A DNA stretch of 51,602 bases from Sphingobacteriaceae bacterium (GCA_023251775.1 JAHEYC010000016.1:1-51602), one strand, 5' to 3'. Counted from the first letter of the stretch, positions 20,321-27,502 are shown. Notes: a model not told the origin generated them from the letters alone. Program-made: numbers and translations.

Positions 20321-23300
20321 TTGAAACTTAGAAAACACATATTAGTCACTTTATTTTCGGCATTCGTCTTTTGTTTTTACTCACAGAACCTCGTTTTCAG
20401 GCACATTACCAGCGACAATGGTCTCTCCACTAATTTAGTTAATTGCATTTATCAGGATAGTAAGGGGTTTATGTGGTTCGGAACTCAAGAAGGACTGAAT
20501 AGGTATGATGGGTATAAAATAAAGATCTACAAGCACGAACCTAACAATAGCAACTCTCTTTCTTATTCAGAAGTGAACTGTTTAATTGAGCTTAATAATA
20601 ATACCATGTTAGTTGGTACTCCCAACGGTGTAAACTTCTTGAATTTGACCAATGACAGTATTTATCGTTTGATATTTGATACAAAAGATTACAATGCCAA
20701 GATCAATCATGTCAACATAATTAAAAAAATAAGTGAAAACGAAGTTGCAGTTGGAACTCGCAATGGGATAATAATTTGCAATGTAATAACAAAGAAATTT
20801 GATTTTTACGAATTTACCATCGACGATGAAGTAGTGGTTAAGGATATTATTGTGGAAGCTGAAAGATTATTGATCGCTACACAAAAAAAAGGACTTTGGT
20901 CGTTTGGTTTAAAAAACAAAAAGTTAGCCAGGATCACTTTTACAGATGATGATAAAGTTTCAGAGGGAATATTGGGGCTAGAGACGTTGAACAGAATGAA
21001 TGTTTATGCAGGGCAACTTTATTTGGCTACCGAAGGTGCGGGGGTGTTTAAGGTAGATCCTTCAACATTTAATATTGTTAAGCAAAGAAAATTTAAAGTA
21101 AATTACAATGATAGGAATTATGTAAAAGATTTTATTATCAAAGAAGGCATTGCGTATTGTGCAACCGGAAGCGGATTTATAACTTACAATATTCTTACTG
21201 AAGATACAACTGTTTATGTAAAGATCCCTGAGAATCCAAACTCGATCAGCGACAATAAGATCATGTCGGTTTTAGTAGATAATAATGATAATGTTTGGTT
21301 AGGGACTTATTTTGGCGGAGTAAACGTTTCATTTAAGAGCTCTCAGAAATTCGTTGGTGCTTCGAAGTACAAATTGAACTATTACAAAAACCTATTCTTA
21401 ACTTATCAGGATATTCAAGGGAATGTTTGGTTGTGCGGAGATAGGGAATTAAAAATGCTTCCTGTCCGTCAAAATGAATTTAAGTCATATAAAGACATCA
21501 TTGGAAATTTTGATGCGTTATGTTTATACCAAGAATCTCATAATATATATTGGTTTGGAACGTATGGCGACGGATTAAAAAGATATGATGCCTCTACTGG
21601 CAAGGTTACGCAATTTCTCTCTAATGCAAACGGAGGTACAGTACTTTCGATCATACAGGTCGATAATTATCTACTTATCGCTGGCTTTGGCGATGGATTA
21701 TTTAAGCTTGATCTAAAGAGTAATGAGATAAGACAATATTCAACCGCTGACGGGTTGAAGAATGCAAATATCACTAATCTCTTCCTTGACAAAAAAAACA
21801 CGATATGGGTATTGACGGATGGTGGAGGAATGTATAATATTGAGAATTTTTCAAAGACAAACGGGAAATTTGAAATAATCAAACATCACTTAACTAATTT
21901 AAAAGAGCCAAGTATTCCGTCGGATGTTGTTTATTGTATCAATCAAGATAATAACAACAACCTTTGGTTTGGAACAAATAGCGGTTTGTCAAGATACGAC
22001 GGAAAGGTATTTAGAAATTTTTACGAAGGCGATGGCTTAGCAAATACATTTATCTATTCTATTTTAAAGGATAGCACGGGAAGGTTTTGGATGAGCACCA
22101 ATAAAGGGATCACCGCATTTAATCCAACGGAATCTAATAAGCCATTCTTTAAAAATTATACTTTGAAAGATGGGTTAACTAATAACGAACATAATATTGG
22201 TGCAGCAAGTGCATCTGCAAGGGGTAATATATTATTTGGTGGAACAAATGGATATAATATTTTCCGTCCAAGTCAAATAAAGGATAATTTACACGTTCCA
22301 CCAGTGTATGTTGTTTCTTATAAACGTTCGGGTAAAGACATTCCTATTGATACAAACCTCATCTATAAAAAGCACATTAAGCTTAGTTGGCGAGAAAATT
22401 ATTTCCAATTGGAGGTAGTTGCGCTTGATTTTATTGATCCTGAAAAAAATCTTTTCAGATATAAATTGGAAGGCTATGATAAAGATTGGTCGGAACCAAG
22501 CAATGTTCGCTATATCTCTTACACCGAATTACCCGGAGGAACTTATACTTTAAAAATAAAAGCGAGTAATAGTGATGGTGTTTGGAATGAGGATCCTTAC
22601 GAACTTATTATTACTATAGTTCCGCCTTTTTGGAAAACAACTTGGTTCTATATTGTAGTTGTAATTGTTGGTACAGGTTTGGTAGTATTATTTACACAAT
22701 GGCGCACCCGTAAGATCAAGGAAGAAAATAAGATCCTTGAGAATAAAGTTGCAGAACGCACGAGAGAGTTGGCCGAAAAAAATAGGGATATTACAAGTAG
22801 TATTGAGTATGCTAAAAGGATCCAAGAAGCGATATTGCCTTCAAAAGATTTTATTTTCTCAAAACTAAAACAAGCATTCATTCTTTATAAACCTAAAGAT
22901 ATTGTGAGTGGTGATTTTTATTGGTTTGGTGAAAAAAATGGATGGAAGATCTTCGCTGTGGTAGATTGTACAGGCCATGGTGTACCGGGTGCATTCATGA
23001 GTATGATAGGTCATAACCTCATGCATCAGATCATTCAGGAAAAAGGCATTACCGATCCAGGCGAGATCTTGAATAGTTTGCACAAGGGGGTTCAAGAATC
23101 ATTGAGACAAGGAAACAACGAGATAAATACAAATGACGGGATGGATGTGTCCATTATCGCTTTAAATAACGATAATAAAACAACAGTTTGGGCAGGGGCT
23201 AATCGACCGCTGGTGATCATATCGAATGATGGAGAATTCTCTAAGATCGATGGTAATAAGTATCCAATAGGAGGTTCACAATTTGACATTAAGCGAGAGT

Positions 23301-23545
23301 TCACAACGAAAACGATCGAGGTGAATAAACCTTCCATGGCCTATTTATCCTCAGACGGTTATGCCGATCAGTTTGGCGGAAATAATGGAAAAAAATTCAT
23401 GGTGCGACGTTTCTATGATCTGTTATTGGAGATTCATTTAAAGGATATGGACTCGCAACGCGAATTGTTAAATAAGGCATTTGAGGATTGGAGAAACGAT
23501 CACGAACAGATAGATGACGTTTTGGTTGTTGGTGTTGCTTTATAA
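20321..23545 (+). CDS. Membrane sensor phosphatase: Reg_prop propeller, Y_Y_Y, SpoIIE/PP2C
   Basis: A 1074-residue protein. A signal peptide (to about residue 22) is followed by a two-component-regulator propeller (Reg_prop repeats such as LVNCIYQDSKGFMWFGTQEG), a Y_Y_Y domain (about 690-755), one membrane helix (about 770-790), a coiled-coil linker, and a cytoplasmic SpoIIE/PP2C phosphatase. Acidic metal-ligand motifs are seen at SGDFYWFG, VVDCTGHGVPGAF (Asp near 882), SSDGYADQFG and QIDDVLVVGV. This replaces the usual histidine kinase of such propellers with a Ser/Thr phosphatase. It is the natural SiaA counterpart of the SiaB and SiaC genes downstream. The start is TTG, chosen because it begins the signal peptide. 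Confidence 0.9.
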   Translation: MKLRKHILVTLFSAFVFCFYSQNLVFRHITSDNGLSTNLVNCIYQDSKGFMWFGTQEGLNRYDGYKIKIYKHEPNNSNSLSYSEVNCLIELNNNTMLVGTPNGVNFLNLTNDSIYRLIFDTKDYNAKINHVNIIKKISENEVAVGTRNGIIICNVITKKFDFYEFTIDDEVVVKDIIVEAERLLIATQKKGLWSFGLKNKKLARITFTDDDKVSEGILGLETLNRMNVYAGQLYLATEGAGVFKVDPSTFNIVKQRKFKVNYNDRNYVKDFIIKEGIAYCATGSGFITYNILTEDTTVYVKIPENPNSISDNKIMSVLVDNNDNVWLGTYFGGVNVSFKSSQKFVGASKYKLNYYKNLFLTYQDIQGNVWLCGDRELKMLPVRQNEFKSYKDIIGNFDALCLYQESHNIYWFGTYGDGLKRYDASTGKVTQFLSNANGGTVLSIIQVDNYLLIAGFGDGLFKLDLKSNEIRQYSTADGLKNANITNLFLDKKNTIWVLTDGGGMYNIENFSKTNGKFEIIKHHLTNLKEPSIPSDVVYCINQDNNNNLWFGTNSGLSRYDGKVFRNFYEGDGLANTFIYSILKDSTGRFWMSTNKGITAFNPTESNKPFFKNYTLKDGLTNNEHNIGAASASARGNILFGGTNGYNIFRPSQIKDNLHVPPVYVVSYKRSGKDIPIDTNLIYKKHIKLSWRENYFQLEVVALDFIDPEKNLFRYKLEGYDKDWSEPSNVRYISYTELPGGTYTLKIKASNSDGVWNEDPYELIITIVPPFWKTTWFYIVVVIVGTGLVVLFTQWRTRKIKEENKILENKVAERTRELAEKNRDITSSIEYAKRIQEAILPSKDFIFSKLKQAFILYKPKDIVSGDFYWFGEKNGWKIFAVVDCTGHGVPGAFMSMIGHNLMHQIIQEKGITDPGEILNSLHKGVQESLRQGNNEINTNDGMDVSIIALNNDNKTTVWAGANRPLVIISNDGEFSKIDGNKYPIGGSQFDIKREFTTKTIEVNKPSMAYLSSDGYADQFGGNNGKKFMVRRFYDLLLEIHLKDMDSQRELLNKAFEDWRNDHEQIDDVLVVGVAL

Positions 23546-23563
23546 AAAAAAAGTACTATTTTT
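23534..23563 (+). promoter_or_regulatory. Promoter inside the Sia-like locus
   Basis: TTG (23534-23536), 19-base spacer, TATTTTTG (23556-23563), overlapping the end of the phosphatase gene. Predicted leader about 55 bases before the lipoprotein ATG. It can drive the lipoprotein, kinase and phosphoprotein genes separately from the phosphatase. Confidence 0.65.
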
Positions 23564-23622
23564 GTGTATAAATCAGGTGGTTTTAAACCTTTTAGTTTTT
23601 TAACCATCAAATTAATAAAAAC

Positions 23623-24510
23623 ATGAGATCAATAAAATTAATATTCCCCGTAATGGTTGCAGCAACCATTACCTTCACTTCTTGTCACAAAAAGGAAACA
23701 GTTGAAGTTGATAACGAGACCCAATCAGTGGTTGATAATGCCATTGCAGAACAAGAATTCATGAGCATGGTTCCCGCCGCAAATAGTGTTGCTATTAAAA
23801 CAAAAGGAACCGGCGCAGATGCAAATAAGTCGAGCGTTATGCCTTCCCCTTGCGATTCGTTGCATTATATCTCTGGGGACACAACGTTCACTAACCTTCT
23901 TAATCCTCCAACTTTTTCAATGAGTTTATATAGTACAGGACCAAACAGTTGTACTCCAATTCCTGATGGCAAGATTCGTGATGGTCTTCTTTTTGTAACA
24001 TTGCATGGAAGAGTAAAAACTGTAAATAGTTTTATGGTTTTTAAATTACAGAATTACAAAGCGGCGAACATCGATCCAACTAAAAAGATCACTTATTCAT
24101 GTGATAGTATAATAGTTAAAACCCTAGTTAATAATCCTGTCACTAAGATCCGAGAATTCAATATCAAGATCATTGGCGGAAAATGCGTTGGCCCAACCAA
24201 TAATTGGACAACTCTTTATTCTACCGATAGAACCATTAGGCATAACATGTTAACTGATGATACATGGATATGGGGTACTTCAAGTGGCACGAACCGTTTG
24301 AACAGAACGTTCACTGTTGATGTTCCTGCTAGCCAACCATTAGCAAAACACAAGATTTGCCAATTCATTTCTTCAGGTATCCTTAACTTAACACCTAACG
24401 GCTTCAAGACACGGACTGTTGATTATGCCAGCGGAACAGGTGGAGATGTTTGCGACGACGACGCAACCTTCTCGGTAAATGGAAATACAGTTGCATTTAA
24501 ATTAAAATAA
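23623..24510 (+). CDS. Lipoprotein inside the Sia-like locus
   Basis: A 295-residue lipoprotein; lipobox FTSC, Cys21 followed by HKKETVEVDNET. The mature part is mostly beta strand, with Cys scattered in pairs such as PCDS, SCTPIPDG and KCVGPT, and I know no family. It lies between the phosphatase and the SiaB-like kinase, starts from its own promoter and ends 19 bases before the kinase gene. By position it might be an extracytoplasmic partner or ligand-binding subunit of the propeller sensor, or an unrelated gene that reads into the operon. No evidence decides between these. Confidence 0.78.
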   Translation: MRSIKLIFPVMVAATITFTSCHKKETVEVDNETQSVVDNAIAEQEFMSMVPAANSVAIKTKGTGADANKSSVMPSPCDSLHYISGDTTFTNLLNPPTFSMSLYSTGPNSCTPIPDGKIRDGLLFVTLHGRVKTVNSFMVFKLQNYKAANIDPTKKITYSCDSIIVKTLVNNPVTKIREFNIKIIGGKCVGPTNNWTTLYSTDRTIRHNMLTDDTWIWGTSSGTNRLNRTFTVDVPASQPLAKHKICQFISSGILNLTPNGFKTRTVDYASGTGGDVCDDDATFSVNGNTVAFKLK

Positions 24511-24529
24511 GGCGATATATCCACACTGA

Positions 24530-25078
24530 ATGGTAGAGGTTTTTGAGATATATGAAAAAATGGAACGCAATAACATATTGCTTTCATTCAAAGGAGAAGT
24601 TACCTCAGACCTTCTAACCTCTATACTCCAAATAATGGAGAATAAAATGGTTGACCTTCAAGAAGAGCCTAAGATGAAGAAGAAGGTATACAATGTTCTT
24701 GTTGAGTGTCTACAAAACCTTTATCATCATATGGATGAAGTGCCCGATGCAAGGGAACAAAAGTTAAAATCGGCCATTTTTATGATCGGAAAGCTCGAAA
24801 GCCTTTATACCATCTTTACCGGGAACTATATTTTAAATGAGAATATCGCAGGTTTAAAAGGTAGATTAGATAAGGTTAACTCTTTGAATAAGGAAGAGCT
24901 AAAACACTACTATAAGGAAGTATTGAATAATGGGGAGATGTCGCTTAAAGGCGGGGGTGGTTTAGGAATGATAGATATAGCCCGAAAAACGGGTGAAAAA
25001 ATTGATTATAATTTTTTGGAAATTAACGATAAAATATCTTTCTTTACGCTCAATATTAAAGTAACTACACAAAATTAA
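24530..25078 (+). CDS. SiaB-like protein kinase (DUF6272 type)
   Basis: A 182-residue cytoplasmic protein with the GHKL fold pattern: an N-box-like helix (VYNVLVECLQNLYHH near residues 55-75) and a glycine-rich lid/G-box near the end (GGGGLGMIDIARKTG). This is the layout of SiaB of Pseudomonas, a Ser/Thr kinase that phosphorylates SiaC. The gene order phosphatase, lipoprotein, SiaB-like, SiaC-like supports it. An internal ATG at 24560 would shorten the protein, but the first ATG preserves the amphipathic N-terminal helix. It ends 11 bases before the SiaC-like gene. Its ATPase activity is inferred, not shown. Confidence 0.8.
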   Translation: MVEVFEIYEKMERNNILLSFKGEVTSDLLTSILQIMENKMVDLQEEPKMKKKVYNVLVECLQNLYHHMDEVPDAREQKLKSAIFMIGKLESLYTIFTGNYILNENIAGLKGRLDKVNSLNKEELKHYYKEVLNNGEMSLKGGGGLGMIDIARKTGEKIDYNFLEINDKISFFTLNIKVTTQN

Positions 25079-25089
25079 TATAAATAACT

Positions 25090-25470
25090 ATGGATAATTA
25101 CAAAATAGAAGGTTCGCCAAAAACACCATCAATTACGTTTGATCTTGGAAGTGGCGTGTTGGAAATTAAAGGGCGTTCTATCCCTGAGAATTCTATTGAA
25201 TTCTACAAACCTTTGGTTGACGCTTTAGATAAGTATTCTTCTTCATCTAAGCCGGCTACAACTGTGAATGTTCAGTTAGAGTATTTTAATACTTCTTCTT
25301 CAAAATGTATACTTGATGTTTTCAAGAAATTGGAGAGCATTCACAAAGGCGGTAGCGCTGTTACAATTAACTGGCACTACGAAGAAGATGATGAGGATAT
25401 GCTAGAAGCGGGTGAAGATTACCAAGCTATCATCAACGTACCATTTAAAATGGTAATGGTTAACGAGTAA
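25090..25470 (+). CDS. SiaC-like regulatory phosphoprotein (DUF1987)
   Basis: A 126-residue protein with the DUF1987 pattern: LEIKGRSIPENSIEFYKPL, then LEYFNTSSSKCILDVFKKLE. In Pseudomonas SiaC the phosphorylated residue is Thr68; here Thr68 falls in FNTSSS, the same number and motif, which is strong support for the assignment. In the known system SiaC is freed by the phosphatase SiaA, phosphorylated by SiaB, and in its unphosphorylated form activates the cyclase SiaD. No SiaD is present here, so another partner must receive the signal. It is directly followed by a strong terminator. Confidence 0.88.
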   Translation: MDNYKIEGSPKTPSITFDLGSGVLEIKGRSIPENSIEFYKPLVDALDKYSSSSKPATTVNVQLEYFNTSSSKCILDVFKKLESIHKGGSAVTINWHYEEDDEDMLEAGEDYQAIINVPFKMVMVNE

Positions 25471-25496: not shown

Positions 25497-25530
25497 CCCT
25501 CTAAAAGCAAGCGTTTTTAGAGGGTTTTTT
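25497..25530 (+). terminator. Terminator of the Sia-like operon
   Basis: CCCTCTAAAA (25497-25506) pairs with TTTTAGAGGG (25515-25524), followed by TTTTTT. The fbaB -7 box begins three bases later. Confidence 0.85.
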
Positions 25531-25565: not shown

Positions 25566-26618
25566 ATGTCGAAGATCACCGAAATTTTAGGTTCAAAGGC
25601 TGATGGATTATTGAGCCATACTTGCAAGACCATCACTAAAGACCAAATTCATTTACCCGGTTCTGATTTTGTTGATCGCATCTTCTCGATCAGTGATCGT
25701 AATCCTCAGGTTTTAAGAAGTCTTAACCAGCTGTACAATACAGGCCGTTTGGCTAACTCGGGATACATGAGTATTTTACCGGTTGATCAAGGTGTAGAAC
25801 ATAGCGGAGGCGCTTCTTTTGCCCCAAATCCTATGTATTTTGACAGCGAGAACATAGTTAAACTTGCCATAGAAGGCGGTTGCAATGCCGTGGCTTCAAC
25901 TTATGGTGTTTTAGGTTCGGTTGCTCGCAAATATGCTCATAAGATCCCATTTATAGTAAAGATCAATCATAACGAATTCCTATCATATCCTAACCGCTAT
26001 GATCAAATAATGTTTGGAACCATAAAAGAAGCTTGGAACATGGGCGCAACAGCCGTTGGAGCTACTATTTATTTTGGTTCGCCCGAATCGGGACGCCAAA
26101 TAGTTGAGGTAGCAAAGGCTTTTGAAATGGCGCATGAATTAGGAATGGCAACGATTTTATGGTGCTATACTCGCAATAATTCCTTTAAAAAGGATGGAGT
26201 GGATTATCATACTGCAACAGATCTCTCTTCTCAGGCTAATCATCTGGGCGTCACTATCCAAGCAGATGTTATTAAACAAAAACTTTCCGATAAGAATGGT
26301 GGTTATACAGCCTTAAATTTTGGCAAAACTCACGCTAAAGTGTATTCAGAATTAACCACCGATCATCCAATAGATCTTTGTCGTTACCAAGTTGCAAATT
26401 GTTATATGGGACGTATGGGTTTAATTAATAGCGGAGGAGAAAGTAAAGGCGCAAGCGACTTGGCCGAAGCAATTGAAACTGCGGTAATTAATAAACGTGC
26501 AGGTGGACAAGGGTTAATAAGTGGACGTAAAGCTTTCCAAAAGCCAATGAAAGACGGGATAGCACTTTTAAATACTATCCAAGACGTTTATTTAGACAAA
26601 ACGATAACTATAGCTTAA
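25566..26618 (+). CDS. fbaB: Class I fructose-bisphosphate aldolase
   Basis: A 350-residue aldolase of the DhnA/FbaB type, which cleaves fructose-1,6-bisphosphate through a Schiff base on lysine without metal. Evidence: the exact length of E. coli Fba[11 protein letters not shown] near residue 71, KINHNE near residue 132 and ADVIKQK with the Schiff-base lysine at about residue 237. The C-terminal phosphate-binding GLISGRKAF is intact. It works with pckA, eno and gltA in central metabolism. It is followed by accD after 38 bases, so they may be co-transcribed. Confidence 0.94.
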
Positions 26619-26656
26619 CAAGAAACTAGCTAACTAGAAACCAGAAACAAAAAAAG

Positions 26657-27502
26657 ATGGGTTGGTTCAAACGATTAAAAGAAGGAATTACAACAAGCAC
26701 TACCGAGAAGAAGGAAACTCCTGAAGGATTGTGGTATAAATGCCCTTCGTGTAAAAAGATAAATACAGCTCAAGATCACTCAGCACATAAATATGTATGT
26801 CTCGAATGTGGACACCACGAACGCATATCAAGTAAAGAATATTTTGAGATCATTTTCGATGATAATATGTTCACCGAACTGCACGAAAATTTAGTGAGTG
26901 GCGATCCACTCGAATTCACCGATACAAAAAAGTATACTGATCGTTTAACTGATACCATTAGGAAAACAGGATTAAAGGATGCATTAAGAAGCGCTTATGG
27001 TAAAGTAAACGGTGAGGACCTTGTTGTTTGCTGTATGGATTTTACATTCATTGGTGGTAGCATGGGAAGTGTAGTAGGAGAGAAGATAGCACGCGCCATT
27101 GATTTTTGCATCAAAACAAAAGCACCTCTATTGATAATTTCTAAAAGTGGCGGCGCTCGAATGATGGAAGCAGCATTTTCTTTGATGCAGATGGCAAAAA
27201 CCTCAGCAAAATTAAGTCAATTAGCACAAAATCATTTACCTTATATCTCTTTATTAACCGATCCAACTACAGGTGGTGTTACCGCCAGTTATGCAATGCT
27301 TGGCGACCTTAATATAGCTGAACCAAATAGTTTAATTGGTTTTGCTGGTCCTCGGGTTGTGAAAGAAACCATTGGCAAAGACCTTCCAAAAGGGTTTCAA
27401 ACTGCCGAATTTGTTTTAGAACATGGATTCATTGATAAGATCCTTCCACGAACGGAATTAAAGGATAGATTAAGTTCTATTTTAAAAATGTTGAAGAACT
27501 AA
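26657..27502 (+). CDS. accD: Acetyl-CoA carboxylase carboxyltransferase subunit beta
   Basis: A 281-residue protein. The N-terminal four-Cys zinc ribbon (CPSC, then CLEC, about residues 33-55) and the carboxyltransferase core with [22 protein letters not shown] and [15 protein letters not shown] are diagnostic. It transfers carboxyl from biotin to acetyl-CoA, the first step of fatty-acid synthesis, together with AccA. AccA is not adjacent. The pairing with fbaB is often seen in Bacteroidota genomes. Confidence 0.97.

Follow-up and report, generated by a model that had tools for sequence, protein, structure and literature searches.

Organization of the locus

The window analyzed here is the whole stretch of 51,602 nucleotides from a Sphingobacteriaceae bacterium (GCA_023251775.1, JAHEYC010000016.1:1-51602), and all positions are counted from its first letter. 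Four genes follow one another on the plus strand, namely a sensor phosphatase gene with a TTG start (20321..23545; 1074 aa), a lipoprotein gene (23623..24510; 295 aa), a SiaB-family GHKL kinase gene (24530..25078; 182 aa), and a siaC gene of the DUF1987 family (25090..25470; 126 aa), with successive intergenic gaps of 77, 19, and 11 bases. An intrinsic terminator (25497..25524, plus strand) with a 12-bp stem followed by TTTTTT lies 3' of siaC. A preliminary description of this DNA had named three neighboring Sia genes; the SpoIIE/PP2C phosphatase, the SiaB-like kinase, and the SiaC-like protein are all present on the plus strand and are confirmed by Pfam and NCBIfam matches, but they are not direct neighbors, as the lipoprotein gene separates the phosphatase gene from the kinase gene. 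The prediction that the four genes form a single transcription unit, encoding a Sia-type partner switch with a sensor of the hybrid two-component system (HTCS) type, is well supported by the sequence.

The genes for FBA and accD were considered as further operon members and ruled out because the strong terminator lies between siaC and them. FBA class I and accD (25566-27502 in the window) stand 3' of the cassette in many close relatives, despite the terminator found here. The flanking genes, which include asnB, a glycosyltransferase, FBA, accD, and enolase, are mostly metabolic, and no SusC/SusD, glycoside hydrolase, or other polysaccharide-utilization gene was found among the 12 neighboring proteins scanned. 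No sigma-factor or STAS-family match was obtained among the operon and neighboring proteins scanned.

The sensor phosphatase

The phosphatase is built, in order, of a signal peptide, two Reg_prop propellers (20396..22300, about aa 26-660; Reg_prop E-value 2.1e-28), a Y_Y_Y domain (22430..22618, aa 704-766), one transmembrane (TM) helix (22640..22708, about aa 774-796, with the span set by eye), a helical linker, and a SpoIIE/PP2C catalytic domain (22877..23542, aa 853-1074), all on the plus strand. The Reg_prop match reaches 95 bits against a cut-off of 20.4, and the SpoIIE match spans aa 878-1071. In the structure model (mean pLDDT 82.6), helices occupy residues 774-806 and 822-838, and the linker is helical to about aa 848. 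When the model is compared with the whole periplasmic region of the Bacteroides HTCS protein BT4663 (4a2m), the TM score is 0.79 by target length, and the C-terminus compared with SiaA-PP2C (6k4e) gives 0.87 by target length. The sensor had previously been described as one complete Reg_prop propeller plus Y_Y_Y; the domain types stand, but the BT4663 match corresponds to two propellers and not one. The attachment of an HTCS-type propeller sensor to a phosphatase is upheld by both sequence and structure model, with no HisKA, REC, or HTH match in the protein and SpoIIE/PP2C at its C-terminus.

The PP2C motifs are present as SGDFYW (863), DCTGHG (882), DGMD (939), SDGYADQ (1011), and DD (1065); the acidic residues of the domain are invariant in an alignment of 25 orthologues, and the metal ligands are intact. 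The score against the SiaA equivalog model is 193.8 bits, below the cut-off of 700. Phe612 of SiaA has been implicated in SiaC recognition (PMC7647112), and the aligned position in the phosphatase is Lys.

The SiaB-family kinase and SiaC

The kinase matches DUF6272 with 139 bits (cut-off 26.6) and the NCBIfam SiaB_fam_kinase model with 160 bits (cut-off 85), while its score against the SiaB equivalog, 83.8 bits, falls below the cut-off of 225. Glu59 and Asn63 of the N box are invariant in 82 of 82 sequences, Pseudomonas SiaB included, and a GGGGLG motif occurs at position 141. The SiaC protein scores 146.8 bits against its Pfam family (cut-off 24.5) and 96.1 bits against the SiaC equivalog, also below the cut-off (150). 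Its predicted phosphoacceptor, Thr68 (codon 25291..25293, plus strand), already pointed out in the preliminary description, is located within LEYFNTSSSK, aligned with the NTSS motif of P. aeruginosa SiaC (6kko), and shows almost no variation across 27 SiaC sequences.

The lipoprotein

The protein encoded between phosphatase and kinase carries a lipoprotein signal with the lipobox cysteine at position 21, followed by a helix (34-59) and a large antiparallel beta sheet, and it matched no Pfam family. Its AlphaFold model (mean pLDDT 87.7) shows the one helix and large beta sheet; a Foldseek comparison with the PDB gave no significant match, the best being an ORP lipid-transfer domain (E 0.066), and comparison with beta barrels (VIA) gave a Z of about 11 at 5 Å rmsd, a value from which no fold is assigned. 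Residues invariant in the first alignment are Cys21, Arg119, Gly121, Gly218, Gly222, Cys246, Arg264, and Cys277. The lipoprotein export signal of Bacteroidetes is K-(D/E)2 (PMC5080379), and the lysines and acidic residues directly after the lipobox cysteine resemble it, so exposure of the protein on the cell surface is possible.

The gene is kept at the same position, in the interval between phosphatase and kinase genes, in relatives, and among the 30 best matches from a search of 198 genomes of the class, 28 adjoin SiaB and the other two a propeller phosphatase. Restriction of the family to Sia loci was ruled out, as the wider family occurs in 153 of the 198 genomes, with weaker members elsewhere. 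We infer that the lipoprotein acts in the envelope as a conserved partner, in the simplest case of the periplasmic sensor.

Conservation of gene order

SiaB is encoded directly upstream of SiaC in 78 of 80 named SiaC loci. For 57 named loci, 4.5 kb or more of sequence was available upstream of SiaB; among these, a propeller phosphatase gene lies just upstream of SiaB on the same strand in 26, the lipoprotein gene does so in 27, and both are found in 23; open reading frames were called with a simple script, and many of the relatives are metagenome assemblies. The order phosphatase, lipoprotein, SiaB, SiaC is shared across the genus and by several families, usually with short gaps between the genes, and the survey of Bacteroidota that had been proposed for this gene order thus bears it out; the four-gene arrangement is not due to chance. 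Co-occurrence in relatives, on which the earlier proposal had been staked, is complete for the kinase, with SiaB in 123 of 123 SiaC-containing genomes. More distant lineages keep only the SiaB-SiaC pair, beside housekeeping genes such as those for Era/Der-like GTPases and Lgt (names assigned by eye); this suggests that the phosphatase and lipoprotein joined an older SiaB-SiaC pair as a lineage-specific addition, although they may instead have been lost elsewhere.

Two loci (L118 and L122) contain a tandem duplicate with the order SiaB-SiaC-SiaB-SiaC. In another (L160:10534-11082), the gene after SiaC resembles, by eye, those of YfiR-type periplasmic proteins. Proteins of the YfiR type control a diguanylate cyclase in Pseudomonas.

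Sia and SpoIIE proteins in the genome and the class

The source genome (3.6 Mb) contains 11 SiaC proteins, four genes that together encode six SiaB domains (two of the genes are tandem fusions), and 77 SpoIIE domain matches, many of them clustered (for example, on contigs C5, C48, and C65). Among its 66 complete SpoIIE proteins, TPR_12 is found in 39, Reg_prop in nine, and Y_Y_Y in nine; an architecture of propeller and phosphatase is not exceptional, since nine of the 66 combine Reg_prop with Y_Y_Y. The SiaA model is matched by 66 of 66, and similarity to SiaA is therefore not specific.

The two SiaB-SiaB fusion genes (C126, L011:11343-12482; C65, L017:8040-9110) retain the N-box Glu and Asn in both halves and are followed by SiaC and by a SpoIIE gene in convergent orientation; such loci represent a second kind of Sia locus. 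No SiaB adjoins seven of the SiaC paralogues (contigs C140, C83, C128, C134, C77, C42, and C108). Thr68 is retained in most SiaC paralogues of the genome, with Ser in the C65 paralogue.

Across the class, SiaC occurs in 123 of 198 genomes, each of which also has SpoIIE and SiaB. With SpoIIE counts taken among the matches listed, which at the upper end mean at least about 15, SiaC is present in all 110 genomes with four or more SpoIIE domains, and the 75 genomes that lack SiaC have three at most. In the five families that are mixed for SiaC (f3, f5, f15, f20, and f23), SiaC-positive members have the higher SpoIIE counts, although the genomes are not independent and these co-occurrence counts take shared descent into account only in part. 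The pattern is consistent with SiaC as the shared substrate of SpoIIE phosphatases but is no proof of it, and it is probable that many other SpoIIE phosphatases of the source genome act on the same small set of SiaC proteins.

A candidate output

No GGDEF domain was found in the source genome, and among the 198 genomes GGDEF occurs in six, over the cut-off in four. Because the source genome is without GGDEF, the SiaC target cannot be a GGDEF enzyme, and the output of the Sia switch here differs from that of Pseudomonas. A candidate is an exporter (about 1025 aa) that combines TerB, ABC_tran, and ABC2_membrane domains and is closest to ABCG-type proteins. It is found in 115 of the 198 genomes, 113 of them SiaC-positive; it occurs without SiaC in two genomes, and SiaC occurs without it in 10. 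In the mixed families, the exporter tracks SiaC in all but one genome (G046). It lies less than 5 kb from a listed SiaC gene in 41 placements in 39 genomes, compared with about 0.6 expected if genes were placed at random, and 29 of the placements are convergent and nine others lie on the same strand within 1.2 kb. Seen from the exporter side, SiaC lies within 1.5 kb in seven of the 30 closest relatives. The exporter recurs beside SiaC in distant lineages and with several different SiaC paralogues, and in several families it adjoins the cassette's own SiaC (e.g., L244, L261, and L263). In the source genome it is located on contig C134 (L013:3665-6739), 66 bp from a SiaC paralogue, and in the window's genus it is not beside the cassette. 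Further exporter genes beside SiaC, mostly convergent, were seen at L174, L187, L191, L193-L196, L199, and L206-L208.

The co-occurrence and the gene neighborhoods suggest a functional tie between the exporter and SiaC. That the exporter is also the direct target of SiaC is a tentative proposal, which faces a slightly stronger contender, standing just short of an even chance, in which free SiaC acts on some other target (e.g., a transcription regulator, a gliding or secretion component, or an unrecognized nucleotide enzyme) and the exporter is an old neighbor. The predominance of convergent neighborhood over co-transcription, the 10 SiaC-positive genomes without the exporter, and the varied genes that adjoin the orphan SiaC genes of the source genome speak for such another target, whereas the near-complete co-occurrence and the repeated adjacency, in both orientations and with different paralogues, speak for the exporter. 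The broadest form of the exporter proposal, in which TPR- or propeller-bearing SpoIIE phosphatases, dozens of them, would feed a few SiaB/SiaC pairs across the SiaC-bearing Bacteroidota and dephosphorylated SiaC would directly control the exporter, gating transport without c-di-GMP, is doubtful.

Proposed mechanism

The phosphatase, SiaB, and SiaC probably form a Sia-type phosphorylation circuit with a propeller sensor, as judged from their domains, conserved residues, gene order, and co-occurrence. In such a circuit, SiaB would phosphorylate SiaC at Thr68 and so hold it in an inactive state. Binding of a periplasmic cue to the double propeller would alter the dimer formed through Y_Y_Y, the TM helix, and the coiled coil, and this change would switch the PP2C domain in the cytoplasm on (or off), the active domain stripping the phosphate from SiaC. 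Free SiaC would then bind its target, for which the exporter, acted on in trans, is the best candidate.

The signal had been described as probably glycan-like, and by extension the propellers could bind an extracellular glycan and the circuit could be a glycan-utilization switch. The closest fold of the sensor is indeed that of the heparin sensor BT4663, but nothing beyond the fold lends support; the 12 neighboring proteins scanned include no SusC/SusD or carbohydrate-degrading enzyme and are mostly metabolic, and propellers of a similar kind are also found in PorZ and in eight further SpoIIE proteins of the genome, which makes a glycan-utilization switch unlikely. It is more improbable still that the phosphatase acts mainly on other proteins and is merely adjacent to an independent ancestral pair of kinase and SiaC, as the distant lineages without a local phosphatase and the unspecific likeness to SiaA might suggest, given its conserved place in the gene order and the restriction of high SpoIIE counts to genomes with SiaC.

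Significance and comparison with known systems

The Sia switch is widespread in a class in which few genomes encode GGDEF, SiaC being found in more than half of the sampled genomes, and the Bacteroidota thus possess a widespread signaling system that still lacks a known output, along with dozens of SpoIIE phosphatases without a known substrate. The links to the exporter and to the lipoprotein each suggest a specific answer that can be tested, and for finding the signal the cassette offers a defined point of departure. In literature available without subscription, nothing relevant was found on DUF1987, Reg_prop-PP2C, or TerB-ABC proteins in Bacteroidota, the combination of a Sia switch with an HTCS-type sensor was not found, and the SiaD diguanylate cyclase of Pseudomonas was the only SiaC target found described.

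The SiaABC(D) system of Pseudomonas aeruginosa likewise has a SiaB-family kinase beside SiaC, the same Thr68 in NTSS, and the same SiaA-type PP2C domain on a helical linker, and in the alignment Glu59 of the kinase corresponds to Glu61, the predicted catalytic residue of P. aeruginosa SiaB (PMC7647112; PMC8457831; PDB 6kko, 6k4e, 7e6g). The SiaA sensor is a two-TM HAMP module, whereas here a double propeller and Y_Y_Y domain are combined with one TM helix; in addition, the cassette has an extra lipoprotein gene, and SiaD/GGDEF is absent from both operon and genome. By the family membership of its SiaB and SiaC, the cassette is classified as a Sia partner switch, and it is not the Pseudomonas SiaABCD c-di-GMP module, because its scores fall short of the equivalog cut-offs and the SiaD output is absent.

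The SpoIIE/RsbU proteins of the Bacillus subtilis sigma-factor switches share the PP2C domain and the logic of a phosphatase opposed to a GHKL kinase, although their antagonist is a classical STAS protein, whereas here it is SiaC (DUF1987), and the locus carries neither a sigma nor an anti-sigma gene. PorZ (PDB 5m11), a component of the type IX secretion system, also has Reg_prop-type propellers and shows a partial likeness. Against the PorZ NCBIfam model, the phosphatase scores 65 bits, below the cut-off of 260. PorZ has, to our knowledge, no phosphatase domain. The same succession of two periplasmic propellers and Y_Y_Y, followed by a TM helix, is found in BT4663 of Bacteroides, an HTCS protein that binds heparin (PDB 4a2l, 4a2m); the output of BT4663 consists of a histidine kinase, receiver, and HTH, whereas that of the protein described here is a PP2C phosphatase.
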